A stretch of 64,000 nt of DNA from Eunapius fragilis (Eukaryota; Porifera; Demospongiae; Spongillida; Spongillidae). Made by a program: the position numbers and the translations under genes. The notes beneath the pieces were generated by a model. The model did not search any database and had not been told where the DNA came from. It worked only from the letters and a program-made list of their open reading frames with translations. Positions 9,193 to 57,011 of this stretch are shown piece after piece; the stretch's first letter is position 1, and each line of letters opens with the position of its first letter. The stretch lies in assembly GCA_963681505.1 (NCBI GenBank), contig OY811980.1, positions 1,137,042-1,201,041 on the forward strand, in the 5' to 3' direction.

Positions 9193-9961
9193 TCTGAACC
9201 TGCGTCAGCAGGTTCAATATAGGATTGATTGAGGAATGATGAATGTCATTAAAAAAATTTAATCGCGTCGGGAGGGACAACGGAGAAACGGATCACTTAT
9301 CTCGTTGCAGCAATCGAACGACAACACCAAGATCTACGTTTTCATGCTAGCTTCATGTCTTTAAACTATGCGCTTCCAGACAAACAAAGAACCTGCTTCT
9401 CGTGCCCATTCCCAAAAAAATTGTTCGTCGTCGTCGTCTTCCTTAGGAAGGTATAACTCGAGCTACGAACGGTTTTAAAGAACGAGAATAGTACCAATCT
9501 CTTCAGAATTTACCGGCACGTTATCCTAGCATGTCATTTGGACACATATCACATCTAGAAAGAAACTACAGCGAGAAATACCCTATTTTGTTGCAAGTTC
9601 TATGGCCATCTAGCAAGTTCTAGCAAGTTCTTAATAAAAAAATAAAATTAAAAAAAACTTATGAAACAAGTAAATAAAAACATTCTCTAACGAGAAAGTT
9701 GGTGGGCATATAGGATTGACAATGTTGGTGTAAAAAGCACGGAAACAAGTGTGACAGAAATGTTACTGGAAAATTGAAATAGGCCTATATTTAGCCCAGT
9801 CACATTTAGGCAGCGCACGCCTGAGAAAATGGGCTAAATATAGGCCTATTTCAATTTTCCAGTAACATTTCTGTCACACTTGTTTCCGTGCTTTTTACAC
9901 CAACATTGTCAATCCTATATGCCCACCAACTTTCTCGTTAGAGAATGTTTTTATTTACTTG
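9193..9961 (+). mobile_element. Helitron-like element, copy A (non-autonomous, 769 bp)
   Basis: Begins TCTGAACCTGC, where GAACCTGC pairs with GCAGGTTC across a 4-nt loop. Ends ...TTTACTTG. Flanked by A on the left and T on the right. Array copies 2 (25670-25680) and 3 (36695-36705) carry the empty site AAAATAATAAT, so the insertion borders are exact and no target duplication was made. The 5' TC end and A^T insertion are Helitron hallmarks; the 3' CTTG differs from the usual CTRR. The last 297 bp form a palindrome (9666-9962). No coding sequence seen. Confidence 0.75.
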
Positions 9962-9962
9962 T
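9666..9962. repeat. Giant 3'-terminal palindrome of Helitron-like copy A
   Basis: The arms at 9666-9798 and 9830-9962 are 133 bases each and are perfect inverted complements by eye, separated by a 31-nt loop. The right arm ends at the element's 3' terminus plus the flanking T. Confidence 0.95.
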
Positions 9963-10243
9963 AATAATAATAATTTGTTTTGACCATTTCCGAAAATCCA
10001 TGCGAGCGGTAAACCAGAAACTAAACATTTTATTGGAGTGGCCAAACATTTGTCCCGCGGCCACAGGACCTGCGCGGTACCTGTTCCGCCGCCCCTGTAA
10101 ATATTTGATGTGTCAATCGCTTCAGAATATATATCCGCATGATTAGATAAATTATATATAAACCATGCATAAATTAAAGGCAGCATATTGAAAACTTCGC
10201 ATGGAGTGTTATGGAATGTGCAGATGTATCCTTCCTGGCTGGT

Positions 10244-53900: not shown

Positions 53901-55932
53901 CTTTCTATAGGCACCTCAGAGCCAGGCCAGTAGTATATCGCGGTCCTCAGACCTTGCTTCTTTGCTGTGACCCACACCTATGTTATGTGTGTGCACTCAT
54001 ATTACATGTATATATATACACACACACACACTCACAATGTTCACACACACACACACACCACACACACACACACACATGCATGCACACATGCATACGCACG
54101 CACACACATACACACACAAACACACACACAAACACACACCACACATGCATACGCACACACGCACACACATACACACACAAACACACACACACACACATAC
54201 ACACACACACGCACACGCACATGCACACACACACACACACACACACACACACACACACACACACACACACACACACACACACACACACACACACACACAC
54301 ACACACACACACACACACACACACACACACACACACACACACACACAGCGATCTGCATCCATCCATGCAGGCACTAACTGGCTCTCCCAACCACCATTTT
54401 GGATCGTTCTGTGTTGAACCTCCAATGGAGAACGAGTCCTTTAGGACACTGTCGTAGAAGTTGTTGTCAATGATCCCGTGGACATCAGGGTATAGACCCT
54501 GCAAGGTGAGAGAGAAGAGAAGGCATATGTGTGCCAGCTGACTGAAAGCTCTCAGAGGGCGTCACATAAATCATACGTACAGCCACACACACTACTGCAA
54601 GGTGCCCAGAACCACAAAGCAGTTGGCAGCCATGTTTAAACTACAGACAGCCCTTACAATAGTGGACACACCACCTGGCCATCAGATGCAACCTTATAAC
54701 AGTGCACAACAGAACACATGAGGAAATGTTGTTACCGTGACAATGGAGAAGTGATTAGGAAATGTCTTTGATGGAAAAACTGGTATCATGTAGGGAGAAG
54801 TCACTCCATTTTTCCCTGGAACAAGAAATGGAGATGTTGATACACACTCCTCCTAAGCCCGTCCCCACCAAAACTCCACCCTATCAATGACACAGTTACA
54901 AGCCCACCTACATGTGATGATTGGCTGTGATTGACCCACACAGTGGGTCTACTATTGGTGCTATGTATGATAAGTTATTTCTGATTGCTATATTTCAAAA
55001 CAACAGCTGCCCTAAAAAAAAAACAACACCATGGCAACTATCTCGAGCCACTTCTACTTATATGCAACAATAAATCCAGAAAACACAAGGGTCATTAGTA
55101 GGATTCTATCAAATATATCGCTCTTAAGGGAACATACAATGTAATATCCTACAGAGGGTGAGTAGGAGAGGAGAGCAGAAGAGAGGAGTGGGGGTGGAGT
55201 GCCCAAAGGATACACTTCCCTTTCACACGTTGGTGGTAGAGAGTGGGATGCGTGTCCCATTCCACACAACAACAATGCACGTTCCATTCTACACATACAT
55301 GTATCTCATTCAGGTCTTGTTCCCTATATATTATATCAAACCTATGGTGTTCTGGAGGTAAAGATTAAGTGACCGGTTCAAGTAGCCCGCCCAAAACCCG
55401 TCGAGGGAGATCAGGAGAAGTGGTGGATTGTCACTGAGAAAGAATTAAGGCGGGTATCTGGGTACTGGTATCAGAGTACAGCAGGGCACACCGTACCATA
55501 TATCCGATGCGGTGGACGAAGAGGCCTTACCGGCCGGTACAGCGTAGCGGCCAATCATAATCCCCAGCACGATCACGAGGATAACAACCAGCAGGCCCAC
55601 GACCACTAGCTATATACATGGTTAAGGAATTGGAAATCTGAGCCTACAATACAAACGTGCGGAGACTCACTATCGGCCTCCTGAAACGACGCTTCGAGTG
55701 AGGAGCAGCTGTGCTATCCTCTTCCAACTCCAGATACGTAAGAACAGTTTTATTAACAGAGCAGAGGTTTACAGATAATGAACGTACCAACGCTTTCTTC
55801 TCGTCAGCCGAGTAGCGAACGCTAACCTATGTGAATGCGAGGCAACATATTTCAGTGCAATGTTTATACGGCACGACATAGCTGTGGCGAGTTGGAATTA
55901 GGGGGGGATCGGAACCTTACTTTGTCATCCAT
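47964..55932 (-). CDS. ENPP-family ectonucleotide pyrophosphatase/phosphodiesterase (type II membrane)
   Basis: Multi-exon alkaline-phosphatase-superfamily phosphodiesterase. Exons: 55932-55921 (MDDK), 55826-55788, 55727-55671, 55609-55531 (membrane segment LVVVGLLVVILVIVLGIMIG), about 55432-55357 (LLLISLDGFWAGYLNRS), about 54822-54738 (PSKTFPNHFSIVT), about 54500-54355 (GLYPDVHGIIDNNFYD), pieces at 53500-53275 (YFPYSS, STPFAQRVFTVLGWFD), 53197-53110 (LYLNEPDGAGHDFGP), 52546-52438 (NIIVVSDHG), about 49205-49074 (LIKDVPSRFQV), 48660-48603 (GNHGYDNLFSEMQ), 48544-48457 (FIAHGPAFKKGY), 48043-47964 (LLKITPSPNNGTM). All metal ligands and the nucleophilic Thr region are present. There are no somatomedin-B or nuclease-like domains, so it is closest to the short ENPP4-7 form, but with an N-terminal anchor. 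Several internal exons (between 52438 and 49205) are uncertain; candidates lie at 49795-49870 and 50500-50590. The exon 4/5 phase does not close, so a small exon may be missing. Confidence 0.85.
48777..48812. repeat. Poly-G-rich tract in ENPP intron
   Basis: Runs of G broken by single T bases, potentially quadruplex-forming. A similar tract lies at 48329-48342. Confidence 0.8.
49505..49755. repeat. GGA-rich purine tract in ENPP intron
   Basis: About 250 bp of GGA/GGT-rich imperfect repeats on the plus strand. Long reading frames here are artefacts of low complexity. Confidence 0.9.
49985..50350. repeat. 22-bp minisatellite, about 16 copies
   Basis: Unit CATGCACCTCCTCCCCACCA plus CA, nearly identical copies, inside an ENPP intron. 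It gives open frames in several phases that are not genes. Confidence 0.95.
50630..50716. repeat. (TG)n-rich microsatellite
   Basis: TG repeats with TATG interruptions in an ENPP intron. Confidence 0.9.
50847..51018. repeat. 44-bp tandem repeat, four copies
   Basis: Unit begins CACAGTACCATCTACTGTAC and continues ACTGGACACTGTTACGTTCC. The last unit is slightly diverged. In an ENPP intron. Confidence 0.95.
51361..52034 (+). mobile_element. Internally deleted AcademH-like element in ENPP intron
   Basis: Starts TAGCCTCGTTCCCAGCCTGT and ends with the inverted AACTTTAATATAAAAAACTA..GAGGCT. It is flanked by 9-bp repeats AAGGCCACC (51352-51360) and AAAGCCACC (52035-52043), one mismatch. Inside is a 5' fragment of the helicase gene (AYSVEFREAVAYSLACLHQQ, FHLYSGRDVFSNW, frameshifted) on the plus strand. 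It has no transposase, so it is a deletion derivative of the 2200-7414 type. Inverted termini here extend over about 38 bp, more than the 6 bp of the full element. Confidence 0.85.
52555..53070. repeat. Homopurine (GGAGGGA/GAGA) tract in ENPP intron, ~500 bp
   Basis: Almost pure purine on the plus strand for about 500 bp, directly next to the exon ending in SDHG. On the gene's own strand it is pyrimidine-rich and could act as an extended polypyrimidine tract before that exon's acceptor at 52547. Long open frames here are low-complexity artefacts. Confidence 0.9.
53577..53735. repeat. Tandem duplication of ~85 bp in ENPP intron
   Basis: Two copies of a segment starting TTCTCCCAAGCCCCCCCC and containing ACCATGGTGTACCATGCTGC. 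The C runs differ in length. Confidence 0.85.
54021..54348. repeat. (CA)n microsatellite in ENPP intron
   Basis: Interrupted then pure CA for about 330 bp, next to the exon encoding GLYPDVHGIIDN. Confidence 0.97.
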
Positions 55933-56214
55933 AAATTTCAGTGGGTGGATAGAGATGACGATAAGCAACTTATGATGTATTAATGAATCGAGTTGTAAGC
56001 TCATAAATGACGTGAGGGAGTTTTTTTTTGTGGGGGGTCCCACATTACAATATATAGGTGCATTAATGTATACTCATTGTGACATGGCTATTCAGAAGGG
56101 CAAGCAAACATTGTACATGTGACCGTAAAAGCAGAGATAAAATTATTTGGTATAAGCGTGCCTATCCCAAGCACCATTACTATCATTTTACAGCACCCCC
56201 AGGATACAACCATA

Positions 56215-57011
56215 CAAGTAAATAAAAACATTCTCTCTGAGAAAGTTGGTGGGATATAGGTTTTTCAGGCAAATAGTATACTGGTGTAAAAAGCAAAGAA
56301 ACAAGTTTCATCAGAAGGGAAAATGTAATAGTCCTATATTTAGCACACTTCGACTAAGGCATATGCTGTTTCTGTGCTAAATATAGGACTATTACATTTT
56401 CCCTCCTGATGAAACTTGTTTCTTTGCTTTTTACACCAGTATACTATTTGCCTGAAAAACCTATATCCCACCAACTTTCTCAGAGAGAATGTTTTTATTT
56501 ACTTGTTTCCTTAATTTTTTAACACCCAAATCACTGTTGCATCGCAGGTTTCCCCCCTTTCATTTAACCGTCAATCCAGACGTATTGTGAAAATTTTCTA
56601 GGTATCTTTGCTTAATTAGAATTGGTAAGACCGTATATAGGCTTTTAGGCGTTTTTGTATCAAAGCGAGTCCTCCAGCAAATTCTAAAGCTATTGGTGCA
56701 ATTTTCATTGCTTAAAAGTGTTCCTGTCCCGAGTTATGAGTTTTCAAGAAGAAGAAGAAGCAGAAGCAGACGACCCGCCCATTATTTTTGGAAGGGGAAC
56801 GAGGACGGCAGTATTTTTCGTTCTCGACAACCACGCGGTTCTACGACGTGAAACAAAAACGAAACTACTCAGTTTTGACTTCTAGATCGATTGCCGCAAC
56901 AAGTTAGACGATTCGATCGTCGGGAGCGAAGCTACGGTAGGGTCGCGGGATTTTAATTAAATTCATAGTCGGGGTCAAAACCTATATGGAAGTCTCTAGC
57001 GAGACTTCCGA
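56215..57011 (-). mobile_element. Helitron-like element, copy D (797 bp)
   Basis: In element orientation it starts TCGGAAGTCTCGCTAGAGAC, with GGAAGTCTC pairing to GAGACTTCC across a 4-nt loop. It ends TTTACTTG, with A and T flanks. The 5' region shares CATATAGGTTTTGACCCCGA and ACCGCGTGGTTGT with copy B. The 3' end is a palindrome (56214-56508) with arms of about 133 nt that differ from the other copies. No ORF; sits between two divergent genes. Confidence 0.75.

Follow-up and report, generated by a model that had tools for sequence, protein, structure and literature searches.

Helitron2 elements have been described as having a hairpin at their 5' terminus that shows compensatory changes, along with a paired terminal motif (Bao and Jurka 2013, PMC3627910), and in Helraiser a 3' hairpin serves as termination signal (PMC4778049). 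The recognition of Helitron ends and the finishing of their transposition are poorly understood. The DNA analyzed here, referred to as the window, is a 64,000-nt stretch of the Eunapius fragilis genome (assembly GCA_963681505.1, contig OY811980.1, positions 1,137,042 to 1,201,041 of the forward strand; C10:1137042-1201041 in our numbering of the 24-contig, 219-Mb genome). It contains four copies (A to D) of a transposable element family whose 3' terminus is a large palindrome. The family is real and abundant, and is a variant of the Helitron2-like rolling-circle elements. Since covariation of the 5' hairpin and a paired terminal motif are already Helitron2 traits (PMC3627910), that part of its anatomy is not new. 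What appears to be new is a large terminal palindrome, evolving in concert and invertible, together with an A^T target: among the publications listed in literature searches, outside subscription papers and Repbase, no title or abstract opening pointed to Helitrons with a flip-flop, a rolling hairpin or a large palindromic 3' end.

Palindromic ends with paired arms

As listed in Table 1, all four copies start with TC at an A^T junction and end with ACTTG, as had been claimed in an earlier note made from the window sequence alone. A and B lie inside a direct array (repeat spacings ~11 and 15.7 kb) and C next to it; the sister units of the array provide empty sites for A and B. The exact empty sites reported for two copies were recovered, namely two for A and, for B, the 36011^36012 junction plus an identical joined sequence near position 42645. 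Both copies were inserted precisely between A and T, and no target-site duplication was found at the empty sites. Among the ends collected from the genome, A^TC was in register at 21 of 24 5' ends, and T followed ACTTG in 39/39 palindromes.

Other structural claims of the note needed correction. A terminal palindrome is present in every copy, but its size is 276–295 bp instead of 280–300 bp; the arms match closely in A and D, and less closely (92%) in C. The short hairpin ascribed to each start is present in A, B and D, whereas in C the loop and part of the stem are gone. The palindrome is real, yet it does not take the place of a short 3' hairpin, since such a hairpin (TTCTC..GAGAA) persists inside the arms. 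The sequence TTTACTTG occurs eight times in the window, in 8/8 cases at the ends of the four palindromes (mean in shuffled windows 3.4; at least eight in 2/100 shuffles). Folding of single-stranded DNA in silico gave −162.9 kcal/mol (z −32.9) for the palindrome of copy A and −9.9 kcal/mol (z −7.2) for its 5' hairpin.

A genome-wide collection of palindromic ends, proposed as a check, showed that the family is abundant. When two mismatches at most are allowed, the 21-nt end GAGAATGTTTTTATTTACTTG has 3576 forward and 3480 reverse matches, and an exact search for CAAGTAAATAAA facing TTTATTTACTTG at a distance of 245–275 nt identified 1808 palindromes, compared to 0 with the reversed-pattern control. 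From these and other loci 39 palindromes were extracted; the sample took in 32 of 50 palindromes listed from the genome pattern search, omits L011, one palindrome in L014, L030 (mutated end motif) and the palindrome of L062, and counts twice what is probably one duplicated insertion (L006 and L017, with a common flank). In all 39, A precedes CAAG, and the lower strand has CTTG^T at the inner boundary of the palindrome. The arm sequences sort into six groups, with A and C distinct yet in one group. In 38 of the left arms and 37 of the right ones, a small hairpin (TCTC..GAGA) separates the subterminal motif (see below) from the end. With its motif and small hairpin, the outer right arm resembles a complete Helitron2-type 3' end (PMC3627910), and we infer that the left arm is an inverted duplicate of this terminus (motif, small hairpin and TTTACTTG end). 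The two single-arm loci inspected (L003 and L008), both apparently truncated, provided no example of a 3' end that lacks the duplication. Near-identical 3' palindromes stand behind unrelated bodies in L079, L093, L001 and L012, as if ends had been exchanged or bodies captured.

Comparison of the two arms over 115 nt revealed that they differ within a copy at only 42 of 4464 positions (0.94%) and are identical in 22/39 copies; the difference between copies amounts to 3.6% within a group and 16.5% between groups. At 63 subfamily-diagnostic columns the left arm equals the right in 2420/2457 cells, compared to 64% (at most 73% in 500 trials) under random pairing. Insertions and deletions are also matched in both arms, the identity spanning 115–133 nt. 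One position near the spacer occurs in three states (mismatched GCAC/GGGC in three copies, matched GCAC/GTGC and GCCC/GGGC elsewhere), as expected if one mismatch was resolved in either direction.

Changes shared by several copies were then distinguished from those seen in a single sampled copy, using 35 copies of four groups (groups of fewer than five copies, 4/39 copies in total, were omitted). Shared changes were two-armed 50 of 53 times, without exception at 13/16 sites, whereas single-copy changes were one-armed in 34/53 cases (Fisher p 1e-10, with carriers that are not independent). This contrast suggests that the arms are homogenised in the transposing lineage and decay separately after insertion, and homogenisation therefore seems to be tied to transposition. 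Non-matching arms, which the note had named as evidence against its proposal, do occur (C, L027, L080 and B); no DDE partner and no target duplication was found where examined. The single-copy changes of B (3 one-armed, 0 two-armed), L027 (5 and 1) and L080 (5 and 1) are mainly one-armed, as expected from post-insertion decay; L023 has 4 and 0, and C is mixed (6 and 8).

5' ends and Rep-helicase members

The 5' end consists of A^TC, a 9-bp stem with a 4-nt loop and the motif ATATAGG(ATTTGA), which begins directly after the stem, outside the hairpin, and recurs in each palindrome arm, 39–41 nt from the palindrome end. Earlier hairpin lists demanded perfect stems and were thus biased; 24 ends were instead recognised from homology in the region that follows the hairpin, so that stem pairing was not required for their selection. 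All nine pairs are formed in 18 of them, eight in 4, seven in 1 and five in 1. The note's claim that terminal hairpins covary between copies holds for this 5' hairpin: in 13 of these ends, aligned (12 distinct rows), both sides change in 7/9 pairs, a value reached by 10/500 shuffles, and none of the shuffles attains the observed covariation score. In the same alignment 96.3% of cells pair, compared to 29–45% when the stem sides are slid by 1–3 positions; further pair types were not in excess (11 vs 11.1 in shuffles). Taking one representative of each of six subfamilies, the 5' end and its own arm have 11–13 leading bases in common, and the longest leading match is to the arm of the same subfamily in 6/6 cases, two of them tied.

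The Helitron_like_N domain (PF14214) matches 91 places in the genome. Open reading frames (ORFs) L063 (1996 aa) and L062 (2020 aa) encode proteins with DUF6570, HUH-Rep, PIF1, Pif1 2B and OTU domains; these two proteins were scanned and contain neither a DDE domain nor a Pfam match to an endonuclease domain. In 6/6 Rep-helicase copies with flanks examined, the TC-hairpin 5' end is located upstream of the ORF in the coding direction. An autonomous member with a Rep/helicase HUH protein, for which the earlier note had proposed a search, is thus present, and three of the six copies (1976, 1977 and 2020 aa) have both the 5' end and the palindromic 3' end. For the remaining three copies, of 1995/1996 aa, the examined stretch stops short of the 3' end; behind the ORF, matches between these copies (L063, L070 and L072) overlap themselves across more than 1 kb, from ~2.3 kb of the downstream piece onward, resembling a long tandem array.

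In the downstream stretches of the 1976- and 1977-aa copies, a search for further TC-hairpins with perfectly paired stems of 8 bp or longer gave none. The partial protein of the 1977-aa copy (L041) has 79% identity to L063, and that of the 1976-aa copy (L059) has 62%. In the 2020-aa copy the inner palindrome boundary faces the gene and is similar to that of B, and the arm begins with ATGTAGGATTTG, the 12-nt 5' motif of the gene itself. The orientation of the boundary and this motif led us to count the palindrome as the 3' terminus of the 2020-aa element and to reject its assignment to another element. This palindrome (L062, 874-1174) is strongly diverged while its arms are fully identical, and the rule of paired arms thus seems valid beyond the main family. 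Directly adjoining the 3' terminus of this element is a plus-strand remnant (L062, 118-873) that includes a stretch resembling the first exon and a hairpin-like 5' end, the latter repeated; no continuation of the remnant was found on the far side of the element.

A phmmer comparison of L063 with Helraiser gave a helicase match only (91 bits), with the Rep region unmatched. By contrast, L061 (frames of 1277 and 583 aa) matched Helraiser with 906 bits and, judged by this similarity, is a canonical Helitron1 forming a second Rep-helicase lineage of the genome. Membership of the palindromic family in canonical Helitron1 was rejected on account of its CTTG end, its 5' hairpin and a Rep unlike that of Helraiser. 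Four further Rep-helicase copies (L050-L053) with 962-aa frames have a common downstream 5'-end-like hairpin preceded by ATT; here an element seems to have inserted into the gene, after which the composite spread.

Table 1. Family copies, their parts and empty sites (window positions), and Rep-helicase copies with both ends (genome positions).
Feature	Position	Strand	Remarks
Copy A	9193..9961	+	769 bp, non-autonomous; starts with TC, ends with ACTTG; empty sites exact
A 5' terminal hairpin	9195..9216	+	9-bp stem, GTCA loop
A 5' subterminal motif ATATAGGATTGA	9217..9228	+	Recurs in both palindrome arms; 12 leading bases as in own arm
A 3' terminal palindrome	9667..9961	+	Arms ~133 nt, 133/133 complementary; 31-nt spacer, majority ("flop") orientation
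Copy B	21331..22811	-	1481 bp; empty sites known; retains first-exon start (MPSRQEKKK...) of Rep-helicase gene
B 5' hairpin	22788..22809	-	GAGAGTTAC-GTTA-ATAACTCTC, 8/9 pairs
B 3' palindrome	21331..21609	-	
Copy C	43352..45942	+	2591 bp; relative of Rep-helicase element with internal deletion; A^TC start, 5' hairpin reduced
C Rep-helicase N-terminus remnant	44817..45074	+	62.6% identical to L063 aa 4-94 (91 residues aligned)
C 3' palindrome	45667..45942	+	Decayed arms, 92% match
Copy D	56215..57011	-	797 bp
D 5' hairpin	56988..57009	-	GGAAGTCTC-GCTA-GAGACTTCC
D 3' palindrome	56215..56505	-	Arms 99%
Empty site of A	25673..25674	.	A^T, sister array unit
Empty site of A, second	36698..36699	.	
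Empty site of B	36011..36012	.	A^T, sister array unit
1977-aa copy	C1:1774145-1784665		Palindrome ending ACTTG^T downstream
1976-aa copy	C9:6657091-6666524		Palindrome ending ACTTG^T downstream
2020-aa copy	C9:6121260-6131629	-	Palindrome ends ATCTTG^T, arms 134/134 identical

The direct array occupies window positions 9963-43292 and consists of segmental duplicates, the units of which differ by transposon insertions. Two of them carry another inverted-repeat element (13942-14270 and 29676-30004) with 91-bp arms and a 147-nt spacer. Copy B contains a second palindrome (22087-22248) with 72-bp arms (99%) and an 18-nt spacer, and the window opens with a perfect CA repeat of 915 units (1-1830).

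Spacer inversion and possible mechanisms

Four of the 35 copies in the four groups carry an inverted spacer: L029 (A's type), L079, L089 and L093. L089 has its body in common with L012, L082 and L091, all three with an uninverted spacer. Orientation counts for the whole genome, anchored on the inner boundary, used exact patterns and are therefore lower bounds; they identified 75 flipped and 123 unflipped palindromes of A's type (75/198), 85 and 436 of L001's subfamily (85/521), 12 and 253 of D's subfamily (12/265) and 9 and 316 of B's subfamily (9/325). The anchors of the D and B subfamilies are short, so some of their flips may be false, and one D-subfamily palindrome appears in both orientation lists because its 3' flank mimics the anchor. 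Orientation was read from the assembly; palindromes of ~290 bp are short relative to long reads. Both orientations thus occur, at unequal frequencies (flipped share 2.8–38%). The note had proposed fold-back templated copying or arm conversion at a single-stranded stage of a Helitron-like element. The Helitron-like nature, the A^T target without duplication and the co-evolving arms were borne out, but spacer inversion points to strand exchange and goes beyond simple fold-back extension of the 3' end, which would give none.

The explanation that we favor, with moderate confidence, is a Helitron2-like rolling-circle family that is moved by its Rep-helicase, inserts at A^T and has an inverted-duplicated 3' terminus homogenised via a hairpin. 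The mover would be the HUH-Rep/PIF1 helicase, which also carries DUF6570 and OTU domains; insertion is precise, between A and T. Duplication of the 3' terminus in inverted orientation upstream of itself would have created the ~290-bp palindrome, which, upon strand displacement, could fold into a hairpin of ~133 bp with the cleavage site at its base. Arm mismatches would be erased at this stage by repair or copying, so that new insertions start with near-identical arms, and occasional strand exchange in the hairpin or a cruciform would invert the spacer. The ends, the target, the Rep-helicase members with both ends, the paired evolution of the arms and the two spacer orientations are observed, whereas the existence and timing of a hairpin intermediate, the way in which the left arm arose and the activities of the enzyme are inferences; hairpin-mediated copying or strand exchange is likely. 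As to the agent that keeps the arms paired, fold-back copying, hairpin mismatch repair and inter-arm recombination are all compatible with the data, and the proposal of the note is in this respect partly supported.

Several observations weigh against this explanation. A copy's own right arm is the nearest, or tied nearest, in only 31/39 copies, because several copies have one-armed changes. As many as 19/53 single-copy changes are two-armed, 8 of them in C, although these may mark unsampled subfamilies. The proposed timing depends on the contrast between shared and single-copy changes, the carriers of which are not independent. Over 16 nt, the 5' motif of D is slightly nearer to the arms of two other subfamilies (12 vs 11). 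Flip counts need not equal independent inversions, and at least one inversion per subfamily is required. Finally, slow conversion in place, within the chromosome, is possible.

In this last case the transposon would only supply the inverted repeats, and gene conversion and inversion between them would follow insertion. We consider this unlikely. Arms of ~130 bp with a spacer of ~20–35 nt are able to recombine, and spacer inversion is present in four subfamilies. However, copies rich in single-copy changes (L023, L027, L080 and B) carry them mostly in one arm, the 6/8 ratio of C notwithstanding, and flips do not track decay: among the sampled copies arm mismatches are most numerous in D's subfamily, which has few flips, whereas A's type is nearly free of mismatches (4 copies seen) and has the highest flipped share.

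Slightly less probable is rolling-circle transposition combined with parvovirus-like hairpin transfer, in which Rep would cut both the outer nick site and an inner mirror site, and the palindrome would be resolved, inverted and perfected. Adeno-associated virus (AAV) is an HUH-Rep replicon, and true rolling-hairpin replication of the AAV type, in which Rep would nick a mirror site where the palindrome meets the element body, is doubtful here. It would account for the presence of both flip and flop and for the uniform CTTG^T at the inner boundary, but the large palindrome is found at one end only, the flips amount to 3–38% and not to half, and the inner boundaries go back to a small number of ancestors. 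Among AAV products, those joined head-to-tail have been ascribed to a rolling circle and retain a single orientation within each molecule, whereas alternating products mix them (PMC11575299), and the former mode is a better fit to unequal ratios. A flipped share of 3–38% would suit mainly rolling circle plus occasional exchange.

It is improbable that selection on structure alone, acting through base-by-base compensation, maintains the hairpin without copying between arms. Covariation of just this kind is seen in the 9-bp 5' hairpin, which is so short that conversion would not be required, but identity over 115–133 nt with matched indels and inverted spacers exceeds the needs of base pairing. 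That the palindrome is a separate fold-back miniature inverted-repeat transposable element (MITE) lodged in a Helitron-like element is highly improbable in spite of the widely differing bodies behind nearly one palindrome, since it is flush with T at the outer junction in every extracted copy, occurs in Rep-helicase members and carries a motif that tracks the 5' motif of its own subfamily. A DDE or MITE origin of the whole family was rejected, given the lack of target duplication, the two scanned proteins free of DDE domains and the presence of the palindrome in HUH elements.

Comparison with known systems

The family is Helitron2-like by the anatomy of its ends, its protein having been compared with Helraiser only. 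In common with Helitron2 (PMC3627910), it has a 5' terminal hairpin (8 or 9 of 9 pairs in 22/24 ends), short asymmetric terminal inverted repeats (11–13 bp, compared to 8–15 bp in Helitron2) and a small 3' hairpin downstream of the 3' repeat. It differs from the published description in that the motif follows the stem instead of forming part of the hairpin, the target is A^T rather than TTTT^T/C, and the 3' end is duplicated as a 276–295 bp palindrome with inverted spacers.

Subterminal inverted repeats (the 3' one located 38–60 bp from the end in those elements), OTU proteins and numerous non-autonomous copies are also reported for Helentrons, HINE and DINE-1 (PMC4067079). The T^T target and endonuclease domain of Helentrons were not found here (L063 and L062 scanned), and the 3' palindromes of mite HINEs measure only 5–10 bp (PMC4067079). 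The TC start, the HUH-Rep and helicase and a hairpin near the 3' end are shared with Helitron1/Helraiser (PMC4778049), as is the A^T target with Helitron1 (PMC5148889). On the other hand, the sponge elements end with CTTG and not CTRR, possess a 5' hairpin and encode a Rep without a phmmer match to that of Helraiser.

One genome here unites many copies, open-frame Rep-helicase elements with both ends and a record of arm copying and inversion, which opens the single-stranded stage of transposition to sequence study. If hairpin transfer were true, Helitrons would be tied to parvovirus-type replication by mechanism, beyond the HUH fold. Compared to AAV (PMC11575299), the family described here is a chromosomal transposon with one palindromic end and unequal orientations, but, as in the inverted terminal repeats of the virus, this palindromic end occurs in both flip and flop orientations.

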